21,039 nt of DNA from a virus, in IMG/VR virus record IMGVR_UViG_3300046000_007901, positions 1-21,039 of that record, one strand, 5' to 3'. The notes beneath the pieces were generated by a model. That model ran no database searches, was not told the origin of the DNA, and worked only from the letters and a program-made list of their open reading frames with translations. Position numbers and translations under genes: made by a program. Positions 2 through 20,130 of the stretch are shown piece by piece (position 1 is the stretch's first letter; each line of letters starts with the position of its first letter).

Positions 2-520
2 ACAAATAACGTTACGGTTATTAATACATCAACAAATGTGACCGCGGCTACGATAAATGTAGGAGCTCAACCTTCCTTTGGAACGTTAGTAAATGATAAT
101 TTATATGTTGGAAATTCAGCGTCAAATAGCGTTACGGTTATTAATACATTAACGAACGTAACTGCGGCGACAATAAACGTCGGAACAGATCCTCAATTCG
201 GAACATATGTTTCATCGAACAATAGTTTATATGTTGGAAATAATAATTCAAATGACGTTACGGTAATTAATACATTAACAAATGTAACTGCCGCGACAAT
301 AAACGTCATATCAAATCCAAAATTTGGAACGTATGTCCCATCGAACGATTATTTATATGTTGGAAATGCGGTGTCAAATAACATTGTAGTTATTGATACA
401 ACAACAAACTTAATTTACAACTCAATAACCGTTGGTTATACTTCTGTCTTTGGAACATACGCAAACGGTAATTTATACGTTGGAAATAATGCCAGTGCTA
501 ACGTTAGTGTAATAGGAGAA
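2..520 (+). repeat. YVTN-type ~41-residue propeller repeats
   Basis: About four copies of a roughly 123-nt unit encode the pattern LYVGN...VTVINT...TAATINV. The first copies are also very similar at the DNA level, for example the stretch around GTTACGGTTATTAATAC near nt 10 and nt 130. This suggests recent tandem expansion. The array continues upstream of the window. Confidence 0.85.
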
Positions 521-3500: not shown

Positions 3501-6500
3501 ATAACGGTACGTTGTCTGCCAATATTGTTGGTTTAAATACTAATGGGACAATTAATACTTCATTTTCTGCCGGCACCGGATTTATTGGGGGAACACCATA
3601 TAATATTAGAACACAAACAGACGACAAAATATTAATCGGTGGTGCTTTTACCACTTATAATACTGCATCGGCGCCGAAATTAGTGAGAATTAATAGTAGT
3701 GGTGAAACAGACTCGTCATTTATGACAGGTATGGGTACAGGATTTAATGGTGTCGTATATTCAATAGCGATTCAAACCGATGGTAAAATATTAGTTGGTG
3801 GTGATTTTACAACTTTTGACAGTAATTCTCGCATAGGTTTAGTTAGATTAAATAGTGGGGGAACAATTGACACATCATTTAATGTAGGGGTCGGTTTTAA
3901 TGATACGGTTAGAGTTGTTAAAATACAATCCGATAATCAGATATTAGTTGGTGGTAACTTTACTGAATATAATGGGGATAATTATAATGGGTTAATCAGA
4001 TTAAACATAGATGGTAGTATTGATACTTCATTTAATGCTAATGCTGTTTTGTTGGGTATTGGTGGTGGTGTTGCGGATATATTACAATTAAATGAGGGTA
4101 GTATCTTAATATCAGGTAAATTAAATAATGATAATGGTTCATTTATTTTAGATAGTTCAGGTGGTTTATTACAAACTTTTGAAAATCTTTATACTCCTAC
4201 GAATACTAGTATGATAATAAGAAGTAATAATTCAGTTGTGGTTGGTGGAGAATTCTCATATTTCATAGATGATGATGTAGCATATTCAGTCGGTTCAATT
4301 GGGGGTATTACAAGTTCATATAATGATTGTTTTTTAGTGGATTTAACGGAAATTCCACCGACAAATACTACGATTACGGTAATAGCCGGTCCTTATGGAG
4401 TTGACTGTAGAGCTTGTGAACAAGCGGCCTTACCAACACCAACGCCAACAAAAACCCAAACACCAACTAATACTCAGACACCAACAGTTACGACAACAAA
4501 AACCCAAACACCAACGGTCACACCAACTAATACTCAGACACCAACAGTCACACCAACTAGTAATTCACTTTGTCAATATTTTTATGTTTCATCGGAATGT
4601 GGAATTGCCACACCTATTGAAGGTCCAACTATTAATGGTAAAAGATCATTCACTTTTATATTCCCCAACTTTCCTTTCTCTTTAAATGATTATTCTATTT
4701 ATTGGGATGGTACTGTATGGGTTGTATTTTGTGATACTTTAGGTCTTGCGGGTTCTTTCTTACCATTAGACACCGCATTACCTATTGGAAACGCATCTCA
4801 ATGGATTAACTATGCCGGAGGCGTTACTTGTATTACGGATGATAGCGGATTCCAAACATTATTAGTTGAATCTCCTTGTCCAAGCCTCACACCAACTAAT
4901 ACTCAGACACCAACAGTCACACCAACTATTGGTAGTATAAGTGTTGGAGAATGTGATGTATTATATTTAACTAACGATAAATTAGTGTCATCGTACAATT
5001 ATTCTACTAATACAAGTATACTTTTACCAATACCGGGATTTGTAACCGCTAATGATATAGCTCATAGCTCAAGTAAGTTATATACAATTCATCGTGGTGT
5101 GGTGTCTGAGTGGGATATAACTTTATCACCTTTTACGGCAACCTATAATTCTGCGTATGATTTTAATACATTAACACTATTGGGTGGTCTTTCATATTTT
5201 GGTGTGGATCGTTTAGTATCGGCGGATAATACATCGAAAAAAGTTGTTGTTTTAGATTTAGCTTCAAATACTATTACGGAGAGGTTCTCACTTAATCCTA
5301 GTAGATTATATAATTATGATTTAATAGTAACAGATACTAATAAATTATTAATTAGTTCACTTCAACAAAGTACCGCAACTTTCTATATAACTCAATATGA
5401 TTATACAACAGGGTCATTGGAGGTAGATATTCCAGTAACTCCACCAATGAGTAGTTTACAGGGGATATTCCAAGATAGTGGAAACATCTATATTACACAA
5501 AACGACGGAACAATTTATACAATTAACTTAAACTACCCATATATAACAACTTTAGAAACTAATTCAACTAATACGGTGCTCGGAATGTCGCAAATACGTA
5601 GTTGTCTAACTGCAAATTTTGCCCCACTACCAACACCAACAAATACTAGAACGCCAACACCAACTAAGACACCAACTCAAACTAAAACACCAACTAAAAC
5701 ACCAACTCAAACTAAAACACCAACTAAGACACCAACGCAAACACCAACAAATACTAAAACACCAACTAAAACGCCAACACCAACAGTTACACCTTCATTT
5801 CCGAATGAATTAAGAGTTGCTGCAACAAATTGTTGCACCAACGAAGAAAGAGTTATCCAACTTTCCGGATTAACCTCTACTGAGTATTTACAAATTATTA
5901 ATAATGTGAATACTGTTTTCGGTTTATCAGCACCTTATGGAAATTGTTGGAAATTTCTTAGAGTGGCAACCGCAAATCCTTCTAATGTAATATTCTCAAC
6001 ATTGAGTACTGTTTATGGGTTAAATCAATGTGAGTCGTGTATTAATACTGAGGCTCCTGGAGATTGTTGTTGCGTTCCTGACATAACAGTAGATTTTATT
6101 GGTATGGATAACCAAGGAGATAATTACATCTATGAAATTGGATTCAACTCACCTAATTGTGGAACATGTTGTGATATTGATGTTGAGTATGCTTTATCAC
6201 CTTCAGGACCTTGGATTACAAGAGAAGCGGGAACATCTTGTAATGGACCATTTACAGTGACAGGTCCAGATCCAACAGGCATCTCTTATTGGAGGTTAAT
6301 CGTATCTTGTTGTGACTACCCTAACTATCCTGATACTAGGGGGGAAAGTTGTGACGGAGCTAAACCTTGTGAATTAACAACAACAACTGGAACCACTGTA
6401 ACTTATACACCTGTTTACTATGCGGTATTCCAATCATGCAATTGTAATGCCGGTGAAAACCCAACTTATAACGAAGTTGTTTTGATTTTACCATATCAAA

Positions 6501-8164
6501 ATATAACCGGTATACGTTATTTTTATTATGGAGGATTTTGTTATGTTTTTGAACGTTGGTCGATCACTAGATCCGGACTTCCCCTTTTGGATAATTATAC
6601 TCTTTGGGATAGTGTTCCATCTATACCGAGTCAAACAAATAATGCTTGTAATGATTTATTGGCTTCACAACAATCATTATGTTGCTCAAATTGTGTGGTT
6701 TATGTCGGCGGCGCTTCCGGCGGTGCTTTCATATATAATATGCAAACAATAGATAGTGACACGAATACAGTTGGAATGTATGGGTTCTTTTTATCAGTCT
6801 CTGCCAATAAAATGATTATGAAACCACAATCAACATCAAATACTCTTAGAGTTAGCAATTTTTTATCACCTTTATCCGTATCACAACCGGCAAGTAGTAT
6901 ATCGTTTCCGCCAAATTGGTTTACAACAACTTCATTAGGATTTGTATTTTCGTTAGATGATGATAATATCATTTATGTTAAAGATGGTAATGGTATCTCT
7001 GAGGTTTGGCAATCCCCACTAAATGGGTTAGATAATATTGCGAATCACACTCTGATTATATCAAACGCTAATCCATTTAGAATAGACGATATAAAGAAAT
7101 CAACAACTGGTAGATATTTAACATTGTCTTTTAATACGGTAACTTCTAGATATTGGATGAGAGAATACAATAGTTCGGGAACTCTAACACAAGAATTTTT
7201 ATTACCTGGATTAGATTATAGAGGGTTTGTTGGTTATAATCAAAACATATACGTTGCAGCACCGGCCAGCAGCGGTTTCCTTAAATTATTTTTAGTTAGT
7301 TATTGTAACCCACAAGATTTCTCATTAACAATGGTAACTACTTCAATGGATGGAACAACTAATACAACCCTTAATCAAAAATACGGTTGTTTAGAGATTG
7401 ATTTAACCGGACTTTCGTTAATAACTACACCGACACCAACACCGACACCAACACCAACAGTAACGCCATCACCACCATCGATTCTGTCTTGTTTGACCGG
7501 TATGAGAGTTGTTTATAGGTATAATCATTTTGAAAGTGGTGCACCTCTAGACCAAAGGTGCCCATGTCCTGGTGTTGTTCAAAGTCATGTTTGTTTACGA
7601 GCAAGATTCATCATGAAAGTTAATGGGATGATTCTTGAACCTACAACACCAACTTGTCTTGAACCCTTGTGGGGTACCAAAACTTGGTCAATAAATAACT
7701 CTTGTAGTCAGCAACCATCACCAAATTGTGGTACCCAGTGTTATCGAGAAAATATTTTTAATGAAAATAATGAGCTTTGGAACGGATGTAGAGATGACTT
7801 TAATTACCCACCAGGACAAACTGCTGGTCCGATTTGGGGAGCTCTCTATAATTATAACAGATATTCTGAAGGATATATTAGCGAAGCTCAAGCACAATAT
7901 ATCGCAAGTCAAACTAATGACTTTTGTGTTAATTTTGTTTTACAATGTTGGATGCCACCAGATAGATGTTGCCGAGACGGATGCGGGGATGATGCAAATC
8001 AAGGTGGTGAGGATGATGGTCAATGTCATGAAGACCGAGCATGGATACAAATATGGATTCGAAATAGCGATGGTACTGAAACATTGAAATTTAACGGATG
8101 CCCTGAATCGTCACAAAATGCGTTTCTTAGAGTAAATGTATGTACAGGGATTGTATGCGAATAA
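2..8164 (+). CDS. Giant modular adhesin / tail-fibre protein with Thr-Pro stalks (5' truncated)
   Basis: The reading frame is open from base 2, and its first codons already belong to a repeat, so the start lies upstream. A GTG at 38 is internal. More than 2,700 residues are visible. Modules in order: YVTN-type propeller repeats (about nt 2-520); Cys-rich modules with paired cysteines (520-1640); a delta-60/DUF5122-like propeller block with ILVGG-F-T motifs (about 1560-2908); a Thr-Pro stalk; a second copy of that block (3092-4429); a stalk; a compact domain (4560-4885); a stalk; a propeller-like domain (4928-5629); a stalk; Cys-rich and FN3-like regions (5800-6420); another propeller-like region (about 6690-7420); a stalk; and a Cys-rich C-terminal domain (7481-8161) with CPCPG and CCRDGCGDD motifs. 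Propellers, stalks and many cysteines suggest an extracellular binding structure, most likely a phage fibre. A host surface adhesin is the alternative. The next gene begins 18 nt downstream. Confidence 0.8.
1560..4429 (+). repeat. Tandem duplication of a delta-60 propeller block
   Basis: Two blocks (about 1560-2908 and 3092-4429) have the same architecture. Each has a short Cys-containing entry segment, a YFYD/YVYDQ...FN-G-GF motif, and several repeats of the type ILVGG-F-T-Y-x-G...L-RL...G-x-D-x-F. Each then has a GPxxDCxAC exit motif and a Thr-Pro stalk. Many repeats align one to one, for example the FNDxVRVVKIQ stretch near 2360 and 3898. Delta-60 repeats (DUF5122) are predicted propeller blades. 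A duplication of the whole module including its stalk is the simplest explanation. Confidence 0.8.
2909..3091 (+). repeat. Thr-Pro stalk 1 of the giant fibre
   Basis: About 60 codons of [20 protein letters not shown] type. Nearly every second residue is Thr, and each Pro before the final SEPQP segment is followed by Thr. At the DNA level there is a 30-nt tandem period encoding [10 protein letters not shown]. It is a mucin-like, extended linker between the two delta-60 blocks and a plausible O-glycosylation target. Confidence 0.9.
4430..4559 (+). repeat. Thr-Pro stalk 2 of the giant fibre
   Basis: About 43 codons of [20 protein letters not shown] type. Its 3' end (4518-4559) is a 42-nt stretch repeated exactly at 4887-4928, so it directly flanks the next domain. 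Confidence 0.9.
4886..4928 (+). repeat. Thr-Pro stalk 3 of the giant fibre
   Basis: A short stalk, [14 protein letters not shown], that is an exact 42-nt DNA copy (4887-4928) of the end of stalk 2. The two copies bracket a domain of about 110 residues. Confidence 0.9.
5630..5799 (+). repeat. Thr-Pro stalk 4 of the giant fibre
   Basis: About 56 codons of [20 protein letters not shown] type. It carries more lysine than the other stalks and has an internal tandem DNA repeat (accaactcaaactaaaac recurring). It joins the third propeller-like domain to the Cys-rich region. Confidence 0.9.
7424..7480 (+). repeat. Thr-Pro stalk 5 of the giant fibre
   Basis: A short pure stalk, [19 protein letters not shown], before the C-terminal Cys-rich domain. 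The DNA is a simple alternation of ACC/CCA-type codons. Confidence 0.9.
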
Positions 8165-8485: not shown

Positions 8486-9739
8486 ATGAAAATTTTTATC
8501 CAAATCGCCTCTTACAGAGACCCAGAATTATATAAAACAATTGACTCAGCAATTAACAACGCCAAAAACCCAAAAAATTTGGTTTTTGGTGTTGTTAACC
8601 AATTAGACAAGTATGACCAATTTCCTTTAGTTAATGAATATAGATACGATAAAAGAATCAAAGAACTAAAAATAGATTGTTACGATTCTAAAGGAGCTTG
8701 TTGGGCTAGAAATCAAATACAACAATTATACGATGGTGAGGAGTATACATTACAAATAGACTCACATATGAGGTTTGAAAAGAATTGGGATTCTGAAATG
8801 ATAAAAATGATAAAACAACTTCAGAAAAAAGGTTATAAAAAACCTTTACTTACTGGATATGTTTCATCTTTTAATCCCGAAAATGACCCTGCGGAAAGAA
8901 TTCCTGAACCTTGGAGAATGGTTTTTGATAGATTTATACCCGAAGGTGCCGTTTTCTTCCTACCTGAAACAATCCCACATTGGAAAAGTCTAAAAGAACC
9001 TGTTCCCGCAAGATTTTACTCAGCTCACTTTTGTTTTACATTAGGAGAATTCGCTAGAGACGTTCAACACGATCCTGACTACTATTTCCACGGAGAAGAA
9101 ATCTCAATCGCGGCAAGAGCATACACTCACGGTTACGATTTGTTTCACCCACACAAAGTATTAATTTGGCACGAATACACAAGAAAAGGTAGAACAAAGC
9201 AGTGGGATGATGATAAAGATTGGGGTACAAAAAATAACCTGTCACATTTAAAAAATAGAAAACTATTTTCAATGGACGGAGAAACCTACAGTCAACTTGA
9301 GTTCGGACCTTATGGTTTCGGAACTGAAAGAACGTTAAGAGATTATGAAAAATATTCAGGTCTATTGTTTGAAAAAAGAGCAATACAACAATATACAATA
9401 GATAAGCACTACCCACCAAACCCTTACTCATTTGATAACGAGGAGGATTGGAAAAATAGTTTCGCTCAAATATTCAAACATTGTATTGATATCGGATATA
9501 CTCAAGTTCCTGAAACTGATTATGAATATTGGGTTGTTGCCTTCCACGATGAAAAGGATGAAACAATCTTTAGAAAAGATGCTGATGTCGGTGAAATAAA
9601 TATGATGAAAAATGATCCTGATGGATATTGTAAAGTTTGGAGAGAATTCCAAACATCACACAAACCAAAGTATTGGGTGGTATGGCCATACTCAACATCT
9701 AAGGGGTGGTGTGAGAGAATTACAGGAAATTTATATTAA
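8486..9739 (+). CDS. GT60-like polypeptide N-acetylglucosaminyltransferase
   Basis: This 417-residue protein closely resembles the GlcNAc-transferase family GT60 (Pfam GlcNAc). Landmarks are the N-terminal IFIQIASYRDPEL motif (residues 3-15), NPKNLVFGVVNQ (28-39), GACWAR (70-75), the metal- and nucleotide-binding LQIDSHMRF (89-97, the DxH form of DXD), GEE (203-205) and IWHEY (227-231). Characterised GT60 enzymes transfer GlcNAc from UDP-GlcNAc to hydroxyproline of Skp1 or to Thr of trypanosomal mucins. The roughly 110 residues after position 310 form an extra C-terminal region I do not recognise. I chose ATG 8486 because the alternative TTG at 8462 lies in a T/A run and adds residues not seen in the family. 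The next gene starts 1 nt after the stop. The family call is firm; the acceptor is inferred. Confidence 0.88.
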   Translation: MKIFIQIASYRDPELYKTIDSAINNAKNPKNLVFGVVNQLDKYDQFPLVNEYRYDKRIKELKIDCYDSKGACWARNQIQQLYDGEEYTLQIDSHMRFEKNWDSEMIKMIKQLQKKGYKKPLLTGYVSSFNPENDPAERIPEPWRMVFDRFIPEGAVFFLPETIPHWKSLKEPVPARFYSAHFCFTLGEFARDVQHDPDYYFHGEEISIAARAYTHGYDLFHPHKVLIWHEYTRKGRTKQWDDDKDWGTKNNLSHLKNRKLFSMDGETYSQLEFGPYGFGTERTLRDYEKYSGLLFEKRAIQQYTIDKHYPPNPYSFDNEEDWKNSFAQIFKHCIDIGYTQVPETDYEYWVVAFHDEKDETIFRKDADVGEINMMKNDPDGYCKVWREFQTSHKPKYWVVWPYSTSKGWCERITGNLY

Positions 9740-9740
9740 A

Positions 9741-10604
9741 ATGATACATGAAAATATTTTGTATGGTTATGATTATGACGATATAGAAAATAAATTAACC
9801 GCGAGAGAGGATATAAAGAACTATGGATTTTTTTCCACATTTACACTCTTACTAACCTCAATAATGACCGTTTACAGAAAATTTGGAAAAACCCCTGATA
9901 TAATTGACTGTAAAAAAGGGATGGCTAAATTTAAAAATGAAGAAAACTTTGATTTGTATCATCATTTTTTTCATATAAATAACGATATTGAAATTAATTT
10001 TGATGAAGAATTACCAGTACCGTTAAGTCCCGACGACCATCATACGGTTTATTCTGAAAAATACATAAAGTTCTATAACCCGTTTTTTCAAAAATACTTT
10101 AATATTAATAAACCTATTGTTGATAGAATTGATTATCTATTAAATAGATATTCCTTGGATGATGATAGGGTTTCAATAATTTACAGAGATTCCGATAAAT
10201 GGACTGATTTTGGCGGGTTTAATTATGTTTCCGCTGGAGCGTATATGAAAAAATTTAGAGAGATTGCGGAAAAAGAAAAACCTAAAAAAATATTAATACA
10301 GTCAGAAAATAACGGGGTTGTTAAAACTTTTGGTGAAGCTTTCGGTGCGATTTTCTTTGAAGAAACTAGTTTAAAAGATTCATCCGACAATTACCCACCA
10401 ATACCTAAACAAAAACACGACATTATAAATTGGTGTGAATTTTACATTGCTTCGCTATGGATTCACGCAAAATCTAAGTATGTTATAACATACACAGGTA
10501 ATAGTTCATTTTTCGTTTATTTAGTTAGACAAACAACTAAAAACTTTATCCAAGAAATAACCTTTACAAAAAATTATAATGATTTTTTTATAAACGAAAA
10601 TTAA
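9741..10604 (+). CDS. Putative glycosyltransferase, possibly fucosyltransferase-like
   Basis: A 287-residue protein starting at ATG 9741, one base after the preceding stop, so probably translationally coupled. The second half looks like a GT-B donor domain. It has VSIIYRDSDKW (about 143-153), then a YMKKFREI helix, a KKILIQSENN strand (about 184-193) and a C-terminal SLWIHAKSKYVITYTGNSSFFVYLVR segment. This order resembles O- or alpha-1,6-fucosyltransferase-type enzymes, where a charged pocket precedes a final S/T-rich loop. I could not find a decisive fucosyltransferase motif such as HxRRxD, and YRDSDK is only a weak counterpart. The N-terminal third is unrecognised. Its place between GT60 and the GT/methyltransferase fusions supports a role in glycan synthesis. 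Confidence 0.5.
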   Translation: MIHENILYGYDYDDIENKLTAREDIKNYGFFSTFTLLLTSIMTVYRKFGKTPDIIDCKKGMAKFKNEENFDLYHHFFHINNDIEINFDEELPVPLSPDDHHTVYSEKYIKFYNPFFQKYFNINKPIVDRIDYLLNRYSLDDDRVSIIYRDSDKWTDFGGFNYVSAGAYMKKFREIAEKEKPKKILIQSENNGVVKTFGEAFGAIFFEETSLKDSSDNYPPIPKQKHDIINWCEFYIASLWIHAKSKYVITYTGNSSFFVYLVRQTTKNFIQEITFTKNYNDFFINEN

Positions 10605-10613
10605 TTTGAAATT

Positions 10614-12362
10614 ATGAAAATGCCAATCGGTGATATTATAGATAGATATACTATTTGTAAATTAAAAAATGAAAGACTTAGTTTAAGCAATGAAAATGAG
10701 ATTAATGAATTATTAAGTCACATTAAAAATTATGATGGTGTAGACCCATTTATTAATGGTTTATATGAAATGAATGGTAAAATTTGGGACTTAGAATCTG
10801 ACATAAGAAAAAAAAATGAACATATTTTAGGTTTAGAAGAAGTAGGTAGAAGGGCGATAAAAATAAGGGAGTTTAATAACTTAAGAGTTGAAATAAAAAA
10901 TGAAGTCAATTCAAAATTTAGTGAGGGGTATATTGAAGTTAAAATGAATCATGGGAGTGAATCAAAAATTGAAGCGGTCATATCGTTAACCACTGTACCT
11001 GAAAGATTATTAAATGAAAATGAGGAAGGTTTAAAATTGGTTTTAAAATCGTTACTAAATCAAAATGATAAAAATTATGAAGTCCATTTTAACATACCAA
11101 AAAAGTACGCAGTAAATGGATCTGACTATATAATACCGGCATGGGTTGATGAATACCAATTAAGATACCCAAAATTAAAAATCTTTAGGACTGAAGATTT
11201 TGGTCCGCCAACTAAATTCGTACCAACAATACAAAGACTAACTGATGAAGAAACAATAGTAATTGTGGTAGATGACGATTTAATTTATCATCCTGATTTA
11301 GTCACTGAACATAAAAAATATCAAAAAGAATTGGTTGATTCGGTTATTTGTTATGATGGTAGAGGGTCAGAGAAACCAAAATATGGCGACTTAAGAGATA
11401 GTTGGATTATATGTGTTACTGAAATAACTCAAACACATTTTCTACAACACTATAAATCTGCGTCATATAAGAAAAAACTATTCGACAATAGCTTCTTTTC
11501 AAAATACTTAGGTAAAACTCTTTCTGACGATGTTCTGATTTCTAGATATTTTAGGGATAAAAATATAAAAATGTATTCTGTCCCATATGAAAAAGAAAAT
11601 TATTTATTTGAAACAAAAGAGTTGTGGGATAAAAATCAAGGAGTCGTGACGTTTCCTATTTTAAGATGTGCTTCTAGTATTGAAAATACGGGATGTAATA
11701 ATCCCGAATTACTAAAAATACAACCTAAATTTTATGAACCAAAAAATTGGTCAGATATGGAAGTAAAGTTTCAAAAATTCCATACGGATAAAATTAATCA
11801 TGGTTATATGAAATTATATAATGAGTTTTTTGAAAAAATGACCGACTCTAAAAATATCCTACATATGGGTATAAAGGATGACTTTTTAGAAATGTTGTGT
11901 GAAGTATTTCCTGAGGCGACAATTTATGGTACGGATAGTACATACAAAATAAAAGAAAATACAAAAATAAAAACTTTTGTTTTAGACCAAACAAATGAAC
12001 AAGGGGTAAAAAAATTCATAGAAGAGGTGAACATCAAATTTGATTTGATTATTGATGACGGTGGTCATACAATGAAACAACAACAAGTGCCTTTTGGATT
12101 ACTCTTTAAAGAATTAAAAAATGGTGGGGTTTATATTATAGAAGATTTACACACGTCTTTAAAAAAAGAATACAAAAATGACGACGACATTATTACAACT
12201 TTAGACATGCTAAATAATTTTAATGAAAATAAAAAAATAATTTCAAACCACATTTCCGAGGAAAATAAAAATTATATTAATGATAATATAGAAAATATTA
12301 TCATTTGGACAAGAACCCCTGATTTTAAAGAAAGTGTTACTTCCGTAATAACTAAAAAATAA
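10614..12362 (+). CDS. Three-part fusion: DUF6165-like, GT-A glycosyltransferase, O-methyltransferase
   Basis: A 582-residue protein with three apparent modules. Residues 1-100 begin MPIGDIIDRYTICKLKNERL, resembling the small DUF6165-like proteins found beside glycosyltransferases (recalled from memory). Residues 118-380 look like a GT-A glycosyltransferase, with VISLTTVPERL (122-132), a DXD-like VVDDDL (218-223) and LSDDVLIS (303-310) as the catalytic-acid region. Residues 400-582 resemble the SAM-dependent sugar O-methyltransferases of the MycE/demethylmacrocin type, with ILHMGIKDD (415-423), YGTD (438-441), FDLIIDDGGHTMKQQ (476-490) and GGVYIIEDLHTS (504-515). The last two contain the His/Asp residues typical of metal-dependent members. 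A single chain could add a sugar and methylate it. It sits 9 nt after the previous gene. Confidence 0.75.
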   Translation: MKMPIGDIIDRYTICKLKNERLSLSNENEINELLSHIKNYDGVDPFINGLYEMNGKIWDLESDIRKKNEHILGLEEVGRRAIKIREFNNLRVEIKNEVNSKFSEGYIEVKMNHGSESKIEAVISLTTVPERLLNENEEGLKLVLKSLLNQNDKNYEVHFNIPKKYAVNGSDYIIPAWVDEYQLRYPKLKIFRTEDFGPPTKFVPTIQRLTDEETIVIVVDDDLIYHPDLVTEHKKYQKELVDSVICYDGRGSEKPKYGDLRDSWIICVTEITQTHFLQHYKSASYKKKLFDNSFFSKYLGKTLSDDVLISRYFRDKNIKMYSVPYEKENYLFETKELWDKNQGVVTFPILRCASSIENTGCNNPELLKIQPKFYEPKNWSDMEVKFQKFHTDKINHGYMKLYNEFFEKMTDSKNILHMGIKDDFLEMLCEVFPEATIYGTDSTYKIKENTKIKTFVLDQTNEQGVKKFIEEVNIKFDLIIDDGGHTMKQQQVPFGLLFKELKNGGVYIIEDLHTSLKKEYKNDDDIITTLDMLNNFNENKKIISNHISEENKNYINDNIENIIIWTRTPDFKESVTSVITKK

Positions 12363-12385
12363 TTAAACCAAGTATCTTATAAATT

Positions 12386-14773
12386 ATGCCAACAAGTACA
12401 CATTATTTTAAACAAGAAACAAAAGACCATATATTAAAAAAATACGATAAAAATATAAAAATATTAGATATTGGGGCGGGAATTGGAACTTACTCTGATA
12501 TGCTTAAACCGGAGGGATATTTAAATATTGATTGTGTTGAGGTATTTGAGAACTACGTAGAACAATACAAACTAAAGGATAAGTATCAAAATGTTTTTAT
12601 TGGTGATGTAACACTACTTAATATTGATTTCAACAGTTATGATTTAATTATAATTGGTGATGTGTTGGAACATATATCAGTAGAGTCATCAATTGAATTA
12701 ATAAATAAATTAACTTCGGTTGATTTTATAATATGTGTACCGTTTGAATCACCGCAAGGAGAACATTATGGTAATAAATATGAAATTCATCTACAAGAAG
12801 ATTTAACGTTATTTAATTTTCTGGAAAGATACCCAACCACTAACCCTTATTGTTTAAGGTTTGATTATGGTATTTTTACTAATACCAAAAATGAGGTTAT
12901 ATATATCGAAACGGGTGAGCGTCCATTACCTGAAAATTATTTTTTACACCTAATTAGGAATAATAGAGATTCCATAATTGAAAATATAGTAGATAAAAAA
13001 AAAGATGATGTTAAATTGAGTGTTGAAGTGGAAAACATTATTAAAAATAATAGTACCACTATTGTAACCGCTCTTTGGGATTTAGGTAGAGGTGAAATTT
13101 CTGAAGGATTTAAAAGAAATTATAGTGATTATCTTAATAAGTTCGGAGAATTATTAAAAACAGATATACCTATGTATATTTTTGCGGATAAGTCGGATGA
13201 AGATTTTATTTGGAGTGTTAGGAGTAAAAAAAATACGGTTATTAATTTCATGTCTTTGGATGAACTTAAATCTTGGTTTAGTTTTACTAATGAAACCGAA
13301 TCAATAAGACAAAAACCCGAATGGCTATCCCAAGCAAGTTGGTTATCAGAATCTCCTCAGGCTAAGTTATCGGGGTATAATCCACTTGTAATGAGTAAGA
13401 TGTTTATGTTAAATAACGTAACGATTTGGGATCCTTTCGGTAGTGATTATTTCTTTTGGATTGATGCTGGAATAACAAATACGGTTCATTACGGATATTT
13501 TACTCACAATAATGTTTTAGATAAATTACCTAATTTCACAAAAAACCACAATGATTTTATTTTCTTGACTTACCCTTATGAGGGTGGTAATGAAATACAT
13601 GGGTTTAATAGAGATGGAATGGCGAAATATTGTAATACTGATTATGTTAGATATGTTTGTCGAGGTGGTTTTTTTGGTGGTGAGAAAAAAAGAATAAACG
13701 AAATAAACGGATTGTATTACTATTATTTGAGTGACACACTAAAATCGGGATTAATGGGTACCGAGGAAAGCGTTTTCACAATAGTTTCACATAAACACGA
13801 AAACTTAATATATAATTTTTCCATAGGACAAGACGGTTTAGTTTGGCCATTCTTCGAAAAACTTAAAGATTGGGAACTAAAAGAGGACGTAAAAAACAAT
13901 TCATATGCCGACAGACCGGTAGAGTTACCTAAGTTAGACAGAATAATTAATGAATCACTTCCAATGGAAGAGACGGCATTATATGTTATAGGATTTAACT
14001 CACCAAATCAATTCAAGACATTAATACATTCAATGATGTCTTATGATAAAAACTTCATTGATAAACCAAAAAAATATCTATTAAATAACTCAACAGATTT
14101 AAGTACAACGGATCAATATGTTGCTCTATGTACCGCCTACGGATTTGAACATATAAAGAAAGATAATATCGGTATTACAGGAGGAAGACAATGGATTGCC
14201 GAACATTTTAACGATAGTAACCATAAATACTATTTCTTCTTTGAGGATGATATGTTCTTTAGTGATGATAAGACGGGTTATTGTAGAAACGGGTTCAGTA
14301 GATACTCGTTTAATCTATATGACAAGTTAATCAAGTTAATGAATAAGGAAAAGTTCGATTTCATTAAGATGAACTACTCCGAGTTTTTTGGAGACAATGG
14401 CACTCAATGGGCGTGGTACAATGTACCACAAGCGTTCAGACAAGTACAATGGCCTGATAACCAAAAATTACCGGTACAAGGATTAGACCCAAATTCACCA
14501 AGAACTAAATACGATACAATACAATCGCTTGAGGGATTACCTTACGCGACGGGTGATGTATTCTATTGTAATTGGCCTCAGATAATGTCTAAGGATGGTA
14601 ATAAGAAGTGTTTCATTGACACCAAATTCCAATTCCCGTACGAACAAACCATTATGTCATTCATTTTCCAAGAAACGGTTAAGGGGGTTATAAAACCCGC
14701 GATTCTGATGTTAACACCAACTGACCATAACAGGTTTGAACATTATGATGCGTCATTAAGAAAAGAATGTTAG
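12386..14773 (+). CDS. Three-part fusion: methyltransferase, HtrL/YibB-like domain, GT-A glycosyltransferase
   Basis: A 795-residue protein. Residues 20-200 are a class I SAM methyltransferase, with motif I ILDIGAGIGTYSDML (26-40), GDV (73-75) and LIIIGDVLEHIS (87-98). Residues 223-500 match the HtrL/YibB family, found in lipopolysaccharide and capsule loci: TTIVTALWDLGRGE (224-237), YNPLVMSKMFML (331-342) and DYFFWIDAGI (354-363). Residues 530-795 look like a GT-A glycosyltransferase with YVIGFNSP (533-540), LLNNST (565-570), GITGGRQWIAEHF (596-608) and a DXD-like FFFEDDMFF (617-625). HtrL/YibB proteins are thought to be glycosyltransferases but are little characterised. The gene ends with TAG and is the last before the ncRNA promoter, so the modification operon stops here. 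Confidence 0.78.
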   Translation: MPTSTHYFKQETKDHILKKYDKNIKILDIGAGIGTYSDMLKPEGYLNIDCVEVFENYVEQYKLKDKYQNVFIGDVTLLNIDFNSYDLIIIGDVLEHISVESSIELINKLTSVDFIICVPFESPQGEHYGNKYEIHLQEDLTLFNFLERYPTTNPYCLRFDYGIFTNTKNEVIYIETGERPLPENYFLHLIRNNRDSIIENIVDKKKDDVKLSVEVENIIKNNSTTIVTALWDLGRGEISEGFKRNYSDYLNKFGELLKTDIPMYIFADKSDEDFIWSVRSKKNTVINFMSLDELKSWFSFTNETESIRQKPEWLSQASWLSESPQAKLSGYNPLVMSKMFMLNNVTIWDPFGSDYFFWIDAGITNTVHYGYFTHNNVLDKLPNFTKNHNDFIFLTYPYEGGNEIHGFNRDGMAKYCNTDYVRYVCRGGFFGGEKKRINEINGLYYYYLSDTLKSGLMGTEESVFTIVSHKHENLIYNFSIGQDGLVWPFFEKLKDWELKEDVKNNSYADRPVELPKLDRIINESLPMEETALYVIGFNSPNQFKTLIHSMMSYDKNFIDKPKKYLLNNSTDLSTTDQYVALCTAYGFEHIKKDNIGITGGRQWIAEHFNDSNHKYYFFFEDDMFFSDDKTGYCRNGFSRYSFNLYDKLIKLMNKEKFDFIKMNYSEFFGDNGTQWAWYNVPQAFRQVQWPDNQKLPVQGLDPNSPRTKYDTIQSLEGLPYATGDVFYCNWPQIMSKDGNKKCFIDTKFQFPYEQTIMSFIFQETVKGVIKPAILMLTPTDHNRFEHYDASLRKEC

Positions 14774-14791
14774 ATTTATTTTTATAAAGAG

Positions 14792-14822
14792 TTTGTAGAT
14801 TCAAAAAATATTTATATCTTTG
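14792..14822 (+). promoter_or_regulatory. Bacteroidota-type promoter for the ncRNA
   Basis: A TTTG box (14792-14795) is followed after exactly 19 nt by TATCTTTG (14815-14822). This fits the known Bacteroidota housekeeping consensus TTTG-N19/21-TAnnTTTG. Transcription should begin about 7-9 nt downstream, near 14830. It lies 18 nt after the stop of the previous gene and is the only perfect match I noticed between genes. Confidence 0.8.
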
Positions 14823-14829
14823 TAAAACA

Positions 14830-14944
14830 AAAGGTAGATACTACCGATCGAAAGTATCCGTAGCGTGTCTGGCGAAATCCGACACAGGTTGAAATTCCTA
14901 CCGCTAGGTAAAATATAAAATGGGGACTTTTGTCCCCATTTTTG
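14830..14944 (+). ncRNA. Predicted free-standing structured RNA (~115 nt), unknown family
   Basis: It lies between a good promoter and a strong intrinsic terminator in a 192-nt stretch with no gene. Hand folding gives a three-way junction. P1 is GGUAG (14833-14837) with CUACC (14898-14902). P2 is AUACU (14838-14842) with AGUAU (14853-14857) and a 10-nt loop containing the palindrome CGAUCG. P3 is GUGUC (14865-14869) with GACAC (14881-14885), extended by GG/CC past a bulged U. Single-stranded CCGUAGC and AGGUUGAAAUUC lie at the junction. An alternative hairpin GGUAG-AUA-CUACC (14833-14845) would compete with P1 and P2, so a switch is possible. Its composition is richer in G/C than its surroundings. 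I could not match it to tRNA, hammerhead or a riboswitch that I know. Confidence 0.65.
14917..14944 (+). terminator. Rho-independent terminator
   Basis: A perfect 11-bp stem AAAATGGGGAC / GTCCCCATTTT (14917-14927 and 14932-14942) closes a TTTT loop and runs into a T tract ending at 14943. Because A's flank the 5' side, it may work in both directions. It separates the ncRNA from the following gene. Confidence 0.88.
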
Positions 14945-14965
14945 TTATACCGTATATTTATCTGT

Positions 14966-15472
14966 ATGAGATTATTAGATTCGGTAAAAAAAATCGTCTT
15001 AGAACAGAGAAAATTTTCAAAACTAAAATGGAATGGTTATATTGGTGATAATAAAATAAAATTATTATCATCGTACCATCAATGGTTTGAAAGGCATGGT
15101 GATGAAAATTATGAAACAATAAAAGACATTTTTTTTGATAAGGTTGCTCATAGTAAAAAATATAGAGTTGGTGTACCTGACGAATTAATCATACAATTAT
15201 TTAAAAAGAATATATCAAAAATTGAAAGTTCATTTGATGATCCATCAAAAAATAGGGTGATTTTTGTAAAAAAAAGAAAGGATAATGAAGATGAAGTTGA
15301 ATTTGATTATATAGAATTTATTTTACAAAAAATTGGGGATAATTATGAGATAATAACATCTAGTTATTCGGATGATGGAAAATTTTTGGTTTTAGGATTC
15401 CCAATTAGAACCAAATTTGTTGTATTGGAAAGGATGATTAAACCTAAATATAAAATAGTATACTTGGATTAA
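14966..15472 (+). CDS. Protein of unknown function
   Basis: I do not recognise this 168-residue protein. The chosen start is ATG 14966 (MRLLDSVKKIV). The frame extends upstream to a TTG at 14930, but that codon lies inside the terminator hairpin. The protein has a basic, helical N-terminus, then a middle region with VGVPDELIIQLFKK (near residues 68-82). The C-terminal part is beta-rich, with charged strands such as NRVIFVKKRK and KFVVLERMI, and there is no membrane segment. Its last base overlaps the next start, as the A of TAA is the A of ATG at 15472, which implies translational coupling with the BppU-like protein and a possible role in tail assembly. Confidence 0.72.
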   Translation: MRLLDSVKKIVLEQRKFSKLKWNGYIGDNKIKLLSSYHQWFERHGDENYETIKDIFFDKVAHSKKYRVGVPDELIIQLFKKNISKIESSFDDPSKNRVIFVKKRKDNEDEVEFDYIEFILQKIGDNYEIITSSYSDDGKFLVLGFPIRTKFVVLERMIKPKYKIVYLD

Positions 15473-16854
15473 TGGAATTTAATATAAAAAAAAATAGCAC
15501 TCTACCCATATTAAAGATGGCGGTAGTCAAAGACGGAAGAAACGACTACCAAAGTTTTATGGATTTTATCGAGACATCAACCCTATTGTTTTCAATGGTT
15601 GATTCTGACACCGGTGTTAGTAAGATTCACATGGAACCGGCAGGATTTGTTGAAAAAACATTTCTTGACCCAAATACACCGGTTGAGTACTATATCTACT
15701 TTAAATTCCAAAAGAAACATCTAAATTATGCGGGTAGATTTGAGGGTCAATTCACATTAAGAAACGAAGCTGGAACTTTAATTTTACCAATAAGAGAACC
15801 GTTATATATTAATGTATTAGAAAGTCAAGGAGCGGATGATATTAATGATGCTCTTAATCTTAATTTAACTGCGGTTATTAGTTCTGGATCTACCATTATT
15901 AATTATATATTTACCGCTAATAAGAAATTAGATTATACAACCACCGTTAATTTCACACATACACTTAACACTGTAACGGGAGATACCGTTGTGGTCACCA
16001 CCGGTGTTACTATTAATGTGGGTAAAAAACTCGGAACGATTACTATAATCTTACCTGATGTGGATTATAATAACCTAACCCAAGAAAATACTTTCACCGG
16101 TGTTGAAATATTCCCTATTGGTATTAGAGGATATACAACAATAAAAGAAGAGGCAATATTTACACAACCCCAAGACCAAAATATTAATGACGCGATTTTA
16201 ACGGGAGTTCAAAACGAATATATATCTGTTGGTAATAACTTCTATTTAAAGTTTGTTGACCCCGAATTTATTGATGATGCCATTTTGGCTGATCCTGAAA
16301 CATATATTAAGGTTGGGGAGGGTATGTATTTGAAATTTATTGATACCCCACCACCTAGCCCAACGACAACTCCGACAAATACTATAACACCTACCGTAAC
16401 TCCGACAATAACAAGTTCTGAGGTTCCAATTGAGCCAACACCTACACCAACTATAACGACAACTAATACGGTAACTCCTACTATAACACCGACGGAAACT
16501 GCGACCAATACACCTACACCAACAGAAACGCCAACTAACACACCTACACCAACAGAAACACCAACTAACACACCTACCCCAACACCAACATTAACCCCGA
16601 ATTGTGTTCGTCAAATAGTTGTTCCTACTCTATGGAATGGGGATACAAACACAAACACTAATACACTTAAATTAACTCAGACTTCAGAAACTTTACAAAT
16701 ACGGGTAAACGACACTATAACAGATAATATTGGGTCAACGAGTTTTGTTGGTATTGTATCATCTGATGGAACATACACATATGTATTTACGGGTGCTGGT
16801 GGTGGGGTTGCCTTCTCATGTCAATTCCCGTTAACATTTTCAGGTGGTTGCTAA
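15472..16854 (+). CDS. BppU-like baseplate/fibre protein with Thr-Pro stalk
   Basis: A 460-residue protein. Residues 1-118 resemble the N-terminal domain of phage baseplate upper proteins (BppU-type). They begin with a KNSTLPILKMAVVKDGR strand, have FSMVDSDTG (40-48) and YAGRFEGQF (86-94), and end in LYINVLES (111-118). The protein encoded at 20153 shares this domain. Residues 125-230 are beta-rich with IxVG and LPDVDYNNLT motifs that recall Calx-beta folds, though this is weak. Residues 238-291 hold two copies of a short repeat (DAILTGV..YISVGNNFYLKFVD and DAILADP..YIKVGEGMYLKFID). Residues 293-377 are a Thr-Pro stalk, and about 83 residues form a C-terminal, possibly receptor-facing, domain. 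The likely role is a virion protein anchored by the N-terminal domain. It overlaps the previous stop by 1 nt. Confidence 0.7.
   Translation: MEFNIKKNSTLPILKMAVVKDGRNDYQSFMDFIETSTLLFSMVDSDTGVSKIHMEPAGFVEKTFLDPNTPVEYYIYFKFQKKHLNYAGRFEGQFTLRNEAGTLILPIREPLYINVLESQGADDINDALNLNLTAVISSGSTIINYIFTANKKLDYTTTVNFTHTLNTVTGDTVVVTTGVTINVGKKLGTITIILPDVDYNNLTQENTFTGVEIFPIGIRGYTTIKEEAIFTQPQDQNINDAILTGVQNEYISVGNNFYLKFVDPEFIDDAILADPETYIKVGEGMYLKFIDTPPPSPTTTPTNTITPTVTPTITSSEVPIEPTPTPTITTTNTVTPTITPTETATNTPTPTETPTNTPTPTETPTNTPTPTPTLTPNCVRQIVVPTLWNGDTNTNTNTLKLTQTSETLQIRVNDTITDNIGSTSFVGIVSSDGTYTYVFTGAGGGVAFSCQFPLTFSGGC
16348..16602 (+). repeat. Thr-Pro stalk of the BppU-like protein
   Basis: About 85 codons of PTNTITPTVTPT and PTETPTNTPTPT type. 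The last part is a 36-nt tandem DNA repeat encoding TPTPTETPTNTP. It is the same kind of mucin-like linker as in the giant fibre but with more Glu and Ile, and again nearly every second residue is Thr. Confidence 0.9.
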
Positions 16855-16898
16855 ATAATTAAACAAATAAATGATATTTATAATAAAATAGAAAAATT

Positions 16899-19256
16899 AT
16901 GTTAACAGGAAAAACAATTGGTGAACTAACCTTACTTGAAACACTAACATCAAATACATTATTCCCCGTAGAATTAAGTGGGGTTACATATCACGCAGCA
17001 TACTCGGCATTCACTAGTAATGGTGGTGGGGTTATTGAGGTAACTTACTCTGAACTTGTTGATGGTATAACGGGGGCGACATTAACACCCGGCACTTTTT
17101 ATACTATTACTGACTATCGTACTTGTTATGACCAACCAGATTTTGACATTGATAATAATCCGATAACTAACGGTACTTATAAGGAATCTGCCGTTGAGCC
17201 TATTATGGTTTTTGCGACTAGCGCTAATACTATTAGTACTTTTGCATATCAACCGTCATACCCTAATGATAAAATTCAATATGATTGGACTTTTAGTGCT
17301 ACCGAAGTAACGCAAGGAGTAGCATATGGTAGAATTACTGAAAGAATTGACGAGTTTAATAATAGAACAGATTACGACCATAGAACCATTGAATTCAAAA
17401 GATATCGTTTATATACATACAGAAATGACCAACCTTTAAATGGTACTATAGAATTATTAAGTAATGGTACGGTTAGTGGTGTTAACACATCATTTTCATC
17501 TTTGACGGTAGGAAATGTTGTTTATATTCCCGCCACAAATTTGTATTATGAAATTGTGAGTATCACGGGTAATACCAATATGACGGTTTCTGGTGATACG
17601 ATAGGGACTGCGGGTGCGGGTTCGGCGTTTTATTTAGCCGTTGAAGAAACTAATGATAGTGATGGATATTTCAATTATAAAAAAACAAATGTTAAAACAG
17701 ATGATTTTATTGAGTATACAACATTTGGTGATGCGATAGCATCAGACTACGCTAAAAATAACTACGTAGGGAATTTTGCAAATAATTACACTAATACAAG
17801 TTCTGGCACATTTATCTTGGCCAACAACGTATTTTTAGAGGGTCAGTACGAAAGTAATAAATTTGGTGATTATTGTTATAATAACACTTTTGGTACAGAT
17901 AATCAAAACAACACATGGGGTGATTATTGTTACGAAAATGCATCAACAAATGATATTGATAACTGTATTATTGGTAATTATTTTTACGGAAACATTATAA
18001 ACGCTAATTTGGATAGTACTCAAATTGGAGACAATTTTCATAGTAATAAATTATTTACTGAAAACAGTACTGATTTTGCTGATAATAGAATTGGTAATTA
18101 TTTTAATAATAACACAATATATTCCGGTTTTTATGATAATATTATAGATAATAACTTTCAAGATAATATCATAGGTGATTTTGTTAGTCTAGATACCTTT
18201 AATTTTTATAGAAATTCGATTCAAAGTTATTTTGCTTCAAATACTGTTAGGCAAGAGTTCTATAAAAATGAAATTGGTTTTGGTTTTAATAATAATCAAA
18301 TAAGTGGAGATACATCTTCAAATAGAATCGGCGAACAATTTCAAAATAATACAATATATGACGACTTTTACGATAATCAAATATTCAATGAGTTTAAGGG
18401 TAATATGATTTATGGTACTTTCTATCTAAATAAAACAGATTGGGCGTTTGCGTCAAACGAAATTACCGGTAGTTGTTTTAGTAACACCTTTGGACCTTAC
18501 ATAAATAGTAACAACTTTTTGGGTGAAGTGAGTGAAAATGTAATTAAAGGTAATTTCAATACTAATACAATGGGGGATTATTTCAAGAATAATACGATTG
18601 GGTATGATTTTTATGATAACTTTATTGGAATCTGGTTCTATAGTAATACAATTGGAAATGAATTTTATAATAACACAATAGGGGATAATTTTGGTTACGG
18701 AAATTCAGACCCCCAAGGAAATAAAATAGGAAATAATTTTCGATATAACACCGTTGGTGAATATGCTTATAACAACTCTATCCCTGATAATTTTGAGAAC
18801 AACACCATAGGAGATTATTTTCAGTGGAACATTGTTAACACAGTTATAAATAACACTGATTTTACAACAAATTATGGAAACATAACAGGGGTTACATATG
18901 TTGCTAATGGGACAACCGGAACTGATGCCGTTTATACTGATTTATCTGGCACTACAAATGGAATTGGTACAGGAGCAACTTTTGATGTTGAGGTTTCGGG
19001 TGGAGCGGTAATAGGTGTTAGTGGATTTTCTGATGGTAGATTATACCAAACCGGTAATACAATAACGATATTAGGGACTCAAATAAGTGGAGCGACTCCG
19101 GCTGATGATGTTGTTATTACTGTTACAGGTATTAGTGTTAATCCATCTGTTTATGAAACTTACACTTGTCAGATTTTTGAAAGACAAGGAGGAAACAAAC
19201 GATTATCATATTACGATTCGAGTGATACACTAACAATAAAAAATATTAATGAATAA
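16899..19256 (+). CDS. Repeat-rich beta-solenoid tail fibre / tailspike-like protein
   Basis: A 785-residue protein. The N-terminus GKTIGELTLLETLTSNTLFP (residues 4-23) looks like a short attachment domain seen in tail proteins of Bacteroidota phages (from memory). Residues 180-255 form a small beta domain. From about residue 320 to 648 the chain consists of Asn-rich units of about 9-12 residues with the pattern x-I-G-x-x-F-x-x-N, for example TIGDYFKNN, TIGNEFYNN and TIGDNF. I predict a right-handed solenoid with stacked Asn and aromatic residues. The C-terminal 130 residues are Gly/Thr-rich and beta-type, ending KRLSYYDSSDTLTIKN. No catalytic motif is visible, so it is more likely a binding fibre than a depolymerase. 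It starts 44 nt after the BppU-like gene in the same direction. Confidence 0.72.
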   Translation: MLTGKTIGELTLLETLTSNTLFPVELSGVTYHAAYSAFTSNGGGVIEVTYSELVDGITGATLTPGTFYTITDYRTCYDQPDFDIDNNPITNGTYKESAVEPIMVFATSANTISTFAYQPSYPNDKIQYDWTFSATEVTQGVAYGRITERIDEFNNRTDYDHRTIEFKRYRLYTYRNDQPLNGTIELLSNGTVSGVNTSFSSLTVGNVVYIPATNLYYEIVSITGNTNMTVSGDTIGTAGAGSAFYLAVEETNDSDGYFNYKKTNVKTDDFIEYTTFGDAIASDYAKNNYVGNFANNYTNTSSGTFILANNVFLEGQYESNKFGDYCYNNTFGTDNQNNTWGDYCYENASTNDIDNCIIGNYFYGNIINANLDSTQIGDNFHSNKLFTENSTDFADNRIGNYFNNNTIYSGFYDNIIDNNFQDNIIGDFVSLDTFNFYRNSIQSYFASNTVRQEFYKNEIGFGFNNNQISGDTSSNRIGEQFQNNTIYDDFYDNQIFNEFKGNMIYGTFYLNKTDWAFASNEITGSCFSNTFGPYINSNNFLGEVSENVIKGNFNTNTMGDYFKNNTIGYDFYDNFIGIWFYSNTIGNEFYNNTIGDNFGYGNSDPQGNKIGNNFRYNTVGEYAYNNSIPDNFENNTIGDYFQWNIVNTVINNTDFTTNYGNITGVTYVANGTTGTDAVYTDLSGTTNGIGTGATFDVEVSGGAVIGVSGFSDGRLYQTGNTITILGTQISGATPADDVVITVTGISVNPSVYETYTCQIFERQGGNKRLSYYDSSDTLTIKNINE
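17860..18840 (+). repeat. Nonapeptide-type solenoid repeats
   Basis: About 30 short units repeat at roughly 27-36 nt with the core I-G-x-x-F-x-x-N. DNA identity between units is only moderate (ATTGG/ATAGG followed by a TTT codon), so the array is old or under selection for structure. The regular stretch at 18565-18830 has nearly exact nine-residue spacing. Confidence 0.8.
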
Positions 19257-19262
19257 AAAATT

Positions 19263-19523
19263 ATGAGAATCTGTATACTATGTGAAGAATCTAAAGTTTC
19301 ACAAGCGAGAGAAAAAATGAAAAATGACAACATCTTAAAAATAAGTTTGTCACCAACAGGAGAATTACCGGCAACTCATAAATTATGTGTTATGGCGGTT
19401 CCCGAAGAAAAGGCTAAACAAATGATAGATTCTGCGGAATTAACAATAATTGAGGCGATGAACCCCAAAGAATTTTTAGCGAAACACAACTTAAAGAAAA
19501 TTGGAAAATACGGAAACATATAA
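19263..19523 (+). CDS. Small protein of unknown function
   Basis: I do not recognise this 86-residue protein. It starts at ATG 19263, six bases after the solenoid-fibre stop. It begins MRICILCEESKVSQAREKM and has a second half of VMAVPEEKAKQMIDSAELTI followed by a basic helix. The beta-alpha-beta pattern suggests a small compact cytoplasmic domain. A CxxC-like pair is absent, since only C4 and C7 lie near the start, separated by IL (CILC), and no second pair follows. Its last 23 nt overlap the next gene in a different frame, so the two are probably co-translated. Confidence 0.65.
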   Translation: MRICILCEESKVSQAREKMKNDNILKISLSPTGELPATHKLCVMAVPEEKAKQMIDSAELTIIEAMNPKEFLAKHNLKKIGKYGNI

Positions 19524-20130
19524 GGTAATAAAAAAATTCATTACTAAAGATGAATCAGACCAAATAGTAAATTGGATAGACTCCGTTAGTCATAACGGTA
19601 ATGATGCTAATCATCATTTAAGTGAACTATCCAAAGTATTAAATGGTAAATCTTATATATTTGATATATCCAACACGACTCTAACGAACTACATAACAAA
19701 TTTCCAATCAATATCTGACGTTTCTAAAGAACCTTTACCCGAATTTATTAATAACATAATTGACCGTATAAGTGACTCTTTTGGATTCCCAAAAGATAAT
19801 ATTTTTTTACAAGCGGTTGATATGGGTAAGGGTGGTAAGGTAAATCCACATTACGATGCGGCGATGGATGGTTATATTAACTACAAATGTAACATAAGTG
19901 TCTTATCTGAAGATTATGATTTGTTCTTAGATAAAGAGTCAATCAAAGTTCAGGAAACAGATTTATACGGATTCGAAGCCTCTTTATATAAACATTGGAC
20001 AAATGAGTTTAACTCAAGAAGAGTTTTTTTGAGTTTCGGTTTCGTTTTAAAATACGAAGAATTAGGTAGAAATGAAAACGACCCAAGAGTTAGATTAAGT
20101 AAAAGAATTGAGAAATACTTTCAAAAATAA
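19501..20130 (+). CDS. 2OG-Fe(II) oxygenase, prolyl-hydroxylase-like
   Basis: A 209-residue protein that fits the small double-stranded beta-helix oxygenases. The iron ligands appear as HYD (H117, D119) and H165 in YKHW. R173 or R174, eight to nine residues later in SRRVFLSFGF, would bind 2-oxoglutarate. The N-terminus FITKDESDQIVNWI is also typical of these enzymes. Such enzymes hydroxylate proline or other residues, or small molecules. The acceptor here is unknown, but Thr-Pro stalks encoded nearby are candidate substrates. The frame has no early ATG. An in-frame stop at 19492 leaves TTG 19501 as the best start, inside the previous gene, so translation is probably coupled to it. Confidence 0.75.
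   Translation: MENTETYKVIKKFITKDESDQIVNWIDSVSHNGNDANHHLSELSKVLNGKSYIFDISNTTLTNYITNFQSISDVSKEPLPEFINNIIDRISDSFGFPKDNIFLQAVDMGKGGKVNPHYDAAMDGYINYKCNISVLSEDYDLFLDKESIKVQETDLYGFEASLYKHWTNEFNSRRVFLSFGFVLKYEELGRNENDPRVRLSKRIEKYFQK

Follow-up and report, generated by a model that had tools for sequence, protein, structure and literature searches.

A GT60-bounded gene island and its candidate role in mucin-like O-glycosylation of Thr-Pro stalks in a large freshwater phage

Characterised glycosyltransferases of family GT60 modify polypeptides, on threonine in trypanosome mucins or on hydroxyproline in Skp1 (PMC3769586, PMC6939170). Here we describe a GT60-type gene and its surroundings in the window, which is the entire 21,039-base IMG/VR fragment IMGVR_UViG_3300046000_007901 from a large freshwater phage and which also encodes fibre-like proteins with threonine-proline (Thr-Pro) stalks. 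The Trypanosoma cruzi mucin UDP-GlcNAc:polypeptide alpha-GlcNAc-transferase (GlcNAc, N-acetylglucosamine), assigned to GT60 in PMC6939170, belongs to the same Pfam/CAZy family as the phage enzyme and adds alpha-GlcNAc to Thr of KPPTTTTTTTTKPP, a Thr-rich, Pro-flanked acceptor resembling the phage stalks, with no hydroxylase needed and with later sugars added by other glycosyltransferases (PMC3769586); it is membrane-bound in the eukaryotic secretory pathway, whereas the phage enzyme lacks membrane segments and has a putative acceptor. The Skp1 pathway of Dictyostelium and Toxoplasma (PhyA, Gnt1, PgtA) likewise has a cytosolic GT60 starter and later extension that includes fucose (PMC6939170), but it is strictly coupled to prolyl hydroxylation of one proline, whereas in the phages hydroxylase and GT60 travel apart, with a long repeat as the candidate acceptor.

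Virion glycosylation encoded by phages is already known as a kind, and a GT60 island directed at Thr-Pro stalks is a new form of it; a literature search for GT60 together with phage found no paper. Mycobacteriophage glycosyltransferases decorate capsid and tail-tube proteins (work cited in PMC12619734), which are other acceptors, and the available part of that paper describes neither a GT60/YibB-bounded exchangeable island nor a Thr-Pro stalk. Mimivirus combines a collagen-modifying hydroxylase with glycosyltransferases (PMC9546862), but the target is collagen lysine, the enzymes are different, the host is an amoeba, and the window phages lack this hydroxylase-transferase coupling. The nearest studied phage is XacN1, which has a GT60 enzyme 47% identical to that of the window and many Thr-Pro proteins, encoded around ORF232-237, 325, 350, 369-372 and 384; its description (PMC5852040) reports at least two glycoproteins in the virions, suspects the phage's own glycosyltransferases, and names ORF334, the GT60 homologue, as one of two. 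XacN1 differs from the window in that its GT60 gene adjoins a carbamoyltransferase gene, with a GT9 gene 7 kb further on, and in that no PF13640 oxygenase was found in it.

The GT60-type transferase and the Thr-Pro stalks

The gene at 8486-9739 encodes a strong PF11397/GT60-type GlcNAc-transferase whose activity is predicted from sequence: the product matches PF11397 at E 7e-72 (243 bits against a cut-off of 21) and phrog_24687 at E 2.9e-161, and all 29 aligned GT60 relatives match PF11397. The motif D92-S93-H94 is invariant across the 29 sequences and resembles an acidic metal site, which suggests metal binding. A first-pass annotation of the window had recognised this gene and had seen Thr-Pro stalks in two virion-type proteins (Table 1), and both observations are borne out, the stalks far beyond chance: the large fibre-like protein carries 18 TPTxTPT motifs, and the maximum in 300 residue shuffles was 0.

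The pattern ACNCCNACNNNNACNCCNAC (TPTxTPT) was used as the stalk marker, with a reversed-pattern control that gave 0-2 matches per contig. The marker is present in 42 of the 43 GT60 contigs of at least 50 kb. A further 46 contigs were collected through relatives of the window's 2-oxoglutarate (2OG)-Fe(II) oxygenase gene and were thus selected for neither GT60 nor stalks; GT60 occurs on 22 of them, all 22 with the stalk motif, versus 8 of the 24 that lack GT60 (Fisher 8e-7), and de-replication to 30 clusters leaves 16/16 versus 3/14 (Fisher 7e-6). On the 2OG tree the GT60 and stalk traits each change 6-7 times. In 22 of 67 loci a Thr-Pro gene directly precedes GT60, whereas Thr-Pro genes make up 103 of 1180 genes overall.

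Isolated phages show the same pairing. Among 50,697 phage records, only three outside the window's group encode this GT60, namely XacN1, RAS14 (43% identity to the window) and CM1. Two of these three were examined for TPTxTPT, and there are 51 matches in XacN1 and 22 in RAS14, versus a single match in total in 14 other large phages, including RaK2, 121Q, GAP32 and Atu_ph07 and with RaK2-like relatives among them.

The co-occurrence of GT60 with stalks, the isolates, the XacN1 virion glycoproteins and the trypanosome precedent on Thr together point to glycosylation of the stalks directly on Thr. It is therefore probable, with considerable room for doubt, that this phage performs mucin-like O-glycosylation of its own Thr-Pro stalks by means of an exchangeable GT60 island. 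GT60 would place the first sugar, alpha-linked GlcNAc, on stalk threonines of the phage's own fibres in the cytosol of the infected cell, and the finished glycan may form a protective or variable coat.

Several observations weigh against this interpretation. XacN1 has a second glycosyltransferase besides GT60, and the identities of its glycoproteins are not given in the available part of PMC5852040. A tree-based test of GT60 against stalks yields only three independent pairs on supported branches, none opposing, and has no power (p 0.5). Stalks also occur on contigs without GT60, in the 8 of 24 above and in 12 of 16 in a terminase-selected set; this terminase-seeded, nominally unbiased set consists mostly of short fragments and gives no usable 2x2 table, and most contigs overall are fragments. 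Within GT60 contigs, stalk motifs show no tendency to lie nearer GT60 than expected by chance (24 contigs above, 18 below; p 0.44), so the two are physically linked in only some of these contigs. One 288-kb contig (G083, the contig of L156) contains 596 TPTxTPT matches, all of them more than 10 kb from the GT60 gene.

Bacterial genomes were also seen to carry Thr-Pro open reading frames (ORFs) near GT60, within 8 kb in 10 of 80 bacterial GT60 loci. Thr-Pro proteins directly adjoin GT60 in Jiulongibacter (L278:6944-7810, minus strand) and in a Vicinamibacterales genome (L293:6424-7998, plus strand). In Paraburkholderia ferrariae (L300:13078-15573, minus strand) and Trinickia terrae (L306:13070-15430, minus strand), a VgrG-type spike (PF05954, Gp5_trimer_C) whose Thr-Pro tail is long and unbroken is encoded no more than 8 kb from a bacterial GT60 gene, an apparent pairing of GT60 and Thr-Pro on a contractile injection machine. 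A contig of a planctomycete metagenome-assembled genome encodes a Thr-Pro protein whose C-terminal domain is that of the crAssvirus muzzle (L281:7499-9262, plus strand), and this domain indicates that the contig may be phage.

An exchangeable island within the fibre region

The genes of the window lie on one strand (Table 1), and because the window is a whole 21 kb fragment, the absence of anything from it means little. The candidate glycan-assembly island, from GT60 (8486) to the end of the gene for the YibB-type enzyme (14773), sits inside the fibre gene region.

Table 1. Features of the window, with coordinates on its 21,039 bases
Feature	Position	Strand	Details
Large fibre-like protein, proposed glycan acceptor, open at the window 5' end	38..8164	+	DUF5122 beta-propeller repeats joined by Thr-Pro linkers; PF17164 E 2.9e-81, 9 stretches
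Thr-Pro stalk segment 1	2909..3079	+	57 aa: 27 T, 15 P
Thr-Pro stalk segment 2	4433..4561	+	43 aa
Thr-Pro stalk segment 3	5624..5797	+	58 aa
Small ORF	between the 38..8164 fibre gene and the GT60 gene
GT60-type polypeptide GlcNAc-transferase (predicted), upstream island end	8486..9739	+	PF11397, phrog_24687, DSH motif
Fucosyltransferase-fold (FUT8/NodZ/POFUT-like) glycosyltransferase (predicted)	9738..10604	+	AlphaFold2 model fold
GT2-type glycosyltransferase with C-terminal methyltransferase domain	10614..12362	+	PF00535 E 5e-7; phrog_21658 E 2e-15
Methyltransferase, HtrL/YibB-type glycosyltransferase (downstream island end) and C-terminal glycosyltransferase-like domain	12386..14773	+	PF13489; PF09612 E 2e-14; phrog_842 E 7e-4
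Small ORF	between the 12386..14773 fusion and the second stalk protein
Second stalk protein: N-terminal domain, Thr-Pro stalk, small C-terminal domain	15472..16854	+	7 TPTxTPT motifs
Thr-Pro stalk segment of the second stalk protein	16435..16602	+	56 aa
Asn-rich, repetitive, beta-helix-like fibre protein (class judged by eye)	16899..19256	+	107 Asn, 14 Pro
Conserved 86-residue ORF overlapping the oxygenase start	19263..19523	+
2OG-Fe(II) oxygenase	19501..20130	+	fold; invariant H117, D119, H165, R173, R174
Protein with N-terminal domain common to the second stalk protein	20153-20563

The second gene of the island, which the first-pass annotation did not list, was called from 9612, but alignment to its relatives begins at residue 42-44 and the initial residues fall in the overlap with the GT60 gene, so that the true start is most likely near 9738, overlapping the GT60 stop. 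The AlphaFold2 model of the product has a confidence score (pLDDT) of only 72.9 and predicts a fucosyltransferase-type enzyme of GT-B fold in the GT23/GT65/GT68-like superfamily: it matches FUT8 (Z 15.6 over 234 residues), NodZ (13.9) and POFUT2 (13.3), and all fucosyltransferases score at least Z 11.9 versus 7.8 for the next unrelated fold. The residues Y149-R150..D153-K154 are invariant in five sequences, down to 26% identity, and we take this Arg motif to be equivalent to the donor-site motif of FUT8. The glycosyltransferase/methyltransferase fusions previously proposed at 10614 and 12386 are upheld by Pfam and PHROG domain matches. The 12386 product scores 54.3 bits on PF09612 (HtrL_YibB) against a Pfam cut-off of 24.1, and falls below the equivalog (same-function) cut-off of TIGR02192 (55.9 versus 264.9 bits).

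Across relatives of the window, the ends of the island are fixed and the middle is exchanged, and the genes are those of soluble enzymes that assemble and tailor a glycan. Of 80 GT60 loci, 63 have a relative of the 12386 YibB part no more than 10 kb from GT60, in all 63 on the same strand and with 0-10 genes between; GT60 is upstream of the YibB gene in most loci, and the YibB gene directly precedes it in five. Among 2OG loci, the YibB part is found in 11 of 14 with GT60 nearby versus 6 of 65 without. Clustering of the 202 cargo ORFs gives 87 families at 50% identity and 50 at 25%, and the Pfam matches of these ORFs include glycosyltransferases (GT2, 7C, 10, 25, 34 and a PLOD-type enzyme) and tailoring enzymes (FkbM and other methyltransferases, CmcI/rhamnosyl O-methyltransferase, UDP-galactopyranose mutase, carbamoyltransferase). 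The soluble transferases of the window (fucosyltransferase-fold, GT2, YibB-type and a third glycosyltransferase) would extend the first sugar, and the methyltransferase domains may cap the glycan. Methyl capping, proposed in the first-pass annotation, is retained in part: unrelated methyltransferases are common cargo, but the window's own domains recur in just 5-7 of 80 GT60 loci, so capping by these domains would be an occasional accessory.

The oxygenase cassette

The product of the gene at 19501 has no sequence match in Pfam, PHROGs, NCBIfam or PDB, so only its fold identifies the enzyme. An AlphaFold2 model built from 36 relatives (pLDDT 85.8) has a double-stranded beta-helix fold matched by solved 2OG oxygenases at Z 13-14, and H117, D119, H165, R173 and R174, an HxD...H iron triad and basic residue, are invariant in the 36 sequences; the fold and this invariance agree with the class and residues already assigned to the gene. 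Either R173 or R174 may bind 2OG. Scores for AlkB homologues (Z 14.4; ALKBH6, 159 aligned residues, 3.0 A), algal prolyl 4-hydroxylase (13.8) and PBCV-1 prolyl 4-hydroxylase (13.7) tie, and since AlkB-type and prolyl 4-hydroxylase-type enzymes cannot be told apart in this way, fold comparison was rejected as uninformative about the substrate class.

The fixed neighbours of the oxygenase are not Thr-Pro proteins. Relatives of the beta-helix-like fibre occur in 70 of 79 2OG loci versus only 7 of 80 GT60 loci, and the 86-residue ORF in 69 of 79 versus 0 of 80, both mostly just upstream of the 2OG gene; relatives of the second stalk protein, mostly its N-terminal domain only, occur in 56 of 79. 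The 86-residue ORF, which has no family match, is about 90% identical in most relatives, exceeding the conservation of the overlapping oxygenase, and is sometimes present in two copies, each following a beta-helix-like fibre gene (L013:5484-5789 and 9727-10026). The 2OG-Fe(II) oxygenase at 19501 would thus belong to a separate cassette, probably outside the Thr-Pro glycosylation pathway, and would have another target, perhaps the fibre whose gene lies shortly before it. Hydroxylation of Asn, Asp or another residue in that fibre or in the 86-residue protein is a tentative reading: the cassette of fibre gene, small ORF and 2OG gene is kept in most of the 79 loci, including genomes without Thr-Pro stalks, the fibre contains far more Asn than Pro, and 4 of 36 2OG relatives match an Asp/Asn hydroxylase model, just at E ~0.1; but this is neighbourhood evidence, and collagen-like genes also lie beside the 2OG gene in several stalk-less phages. 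These genes have Gly-X-Y repeats (GPTGATG, GTSGESG; L038:4006-15658, L042:10617-12566 and relatives), as if one stalk type replaced the other.

Alternative readings and implications

Mucin-like glycosylation of the stalks has to be weighed against other uses of the island. GT25, YibB and GT2 types are found in lipopolysaccharide clusters, as would be expected if the island built or altered a host surface polysaccharide (for superinfection exclusion or receptor masking) rather than decorating the virion. Some jumbo cyanophage glycosyltransferase clusters have been interpreted in this manner (PMC7824862). However, a membrane segment is predicted in none of the 202 cargo ORFs and in none of the window's own genes, hence no flippase, polymerase or lipid-linked initiating enzyme, the enzyme at the upstream end is a polypeptide-type transferase, and the co-occurrence with Thr-Pro proteins is strong, which makes a polysaccharide target unlikely.

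The first-pass annotation had joined GT60 and the oxygenase as two steps of one route aimed at the fibre stalks, in which stalk prolines are first hydroxylated by the 2OG enzyme and the resulting hydroxyproline then receives GlcNAc from GT60, in the manner of PhyA and Gnt1 on Skp1. Both enzyme types are in the window, the 2OG fold resembles prolyl 4-hydroxylases among others, a PHROGs search of the cargo adds one 2OG oxygenase (phrog_61) in an island elsewhere, and on the 16 contigs carrying both genes their median distance of 13 kb is closer than random placement (p 0.005); but the proximity is also explained by residence of both in one fibre region, and GT60 acting on Thr requires no hydroxylase. 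A first pathway step should travel with GT60 and the stalks, and the 2OG family does not: it is found on 3 of 43 GT60 contigs (0 of the 6 longer than 200 kb in that set), has fixed neighbours of another kind, and is kept where GT60 and the stalk motif are both missing, in contigs of 430, 271, 226 and 169 kb. XacN1 and RAS14 have no PF13640 match, although PF13640 is a weak proxy for any prolyl hydroxylase, missing the window's own enzyme family (G002, G011, G062), so that GT60 phages may have other, unrelated hydroxylases. Two contigs of 211-217 kb (G033 and G036, the contigs of L052 and L064) have stalks, no GT60, and, in addition to an oxygenase of the window's type, three to five PF13640 oxygenases apiece. 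Accordingly, the hydroxyproline step is unsupported and the coupled route quite improbable. Of the original proposal, the tie between GT60 and stalks and the extension and capping enzymes survive, the link from hydroxylation to glycosylation does not, and in the co-occurrence survey that it had called for 2OG tracks neither GT60 nor stalks. A fully phage-encoded mucin system, in which GT60 glycosylates stalk residues including hydroxylated prolines and the exchangeable island adds a lineage-specific glycan, is similarly doubtful and, if anything, a shade more so.

Glycosylation of modified bases in phage DNA, suggested by the weak match of the third domain of 12386 to a beta-glucosyl-hydroxymethylcytosine alpha-glucosyltransferase family (phrog_842), was rejected as very improbable because base-modifying enzymes are lacking among the window genes and listed cargo families, GT60 acceptors known so far are polypeptides, and the association is with Thr-Pro fibres.

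Only a few examples of glycosylated phage virions are known, and the pairings of transferase and protein are mostly unassigned. In the present case a single transferase family, a single type of acceptor and a single exchangeable island coincide across many uncultured phages and two distant isolates, and this alignment makes glycosylation of the stalks by GT60 a concrete enzyme-substrate prediction, testable partly on deposited proteomics data. With conserved ends and a middle swapped between phages, the island would give each lineage a different glycan. If the hydroxyproline variant were true, there would be a bacterial virus with both a switchable glycan coat and hydroxyproline. If stalk glycosylation by the GT60 island is correct, it would help to explain the large number of glycosyltransferases in such phages, and would mean that bacterial viruses can have a mucin-like coat with a gene turnover resembling that of O-antigen clusters.

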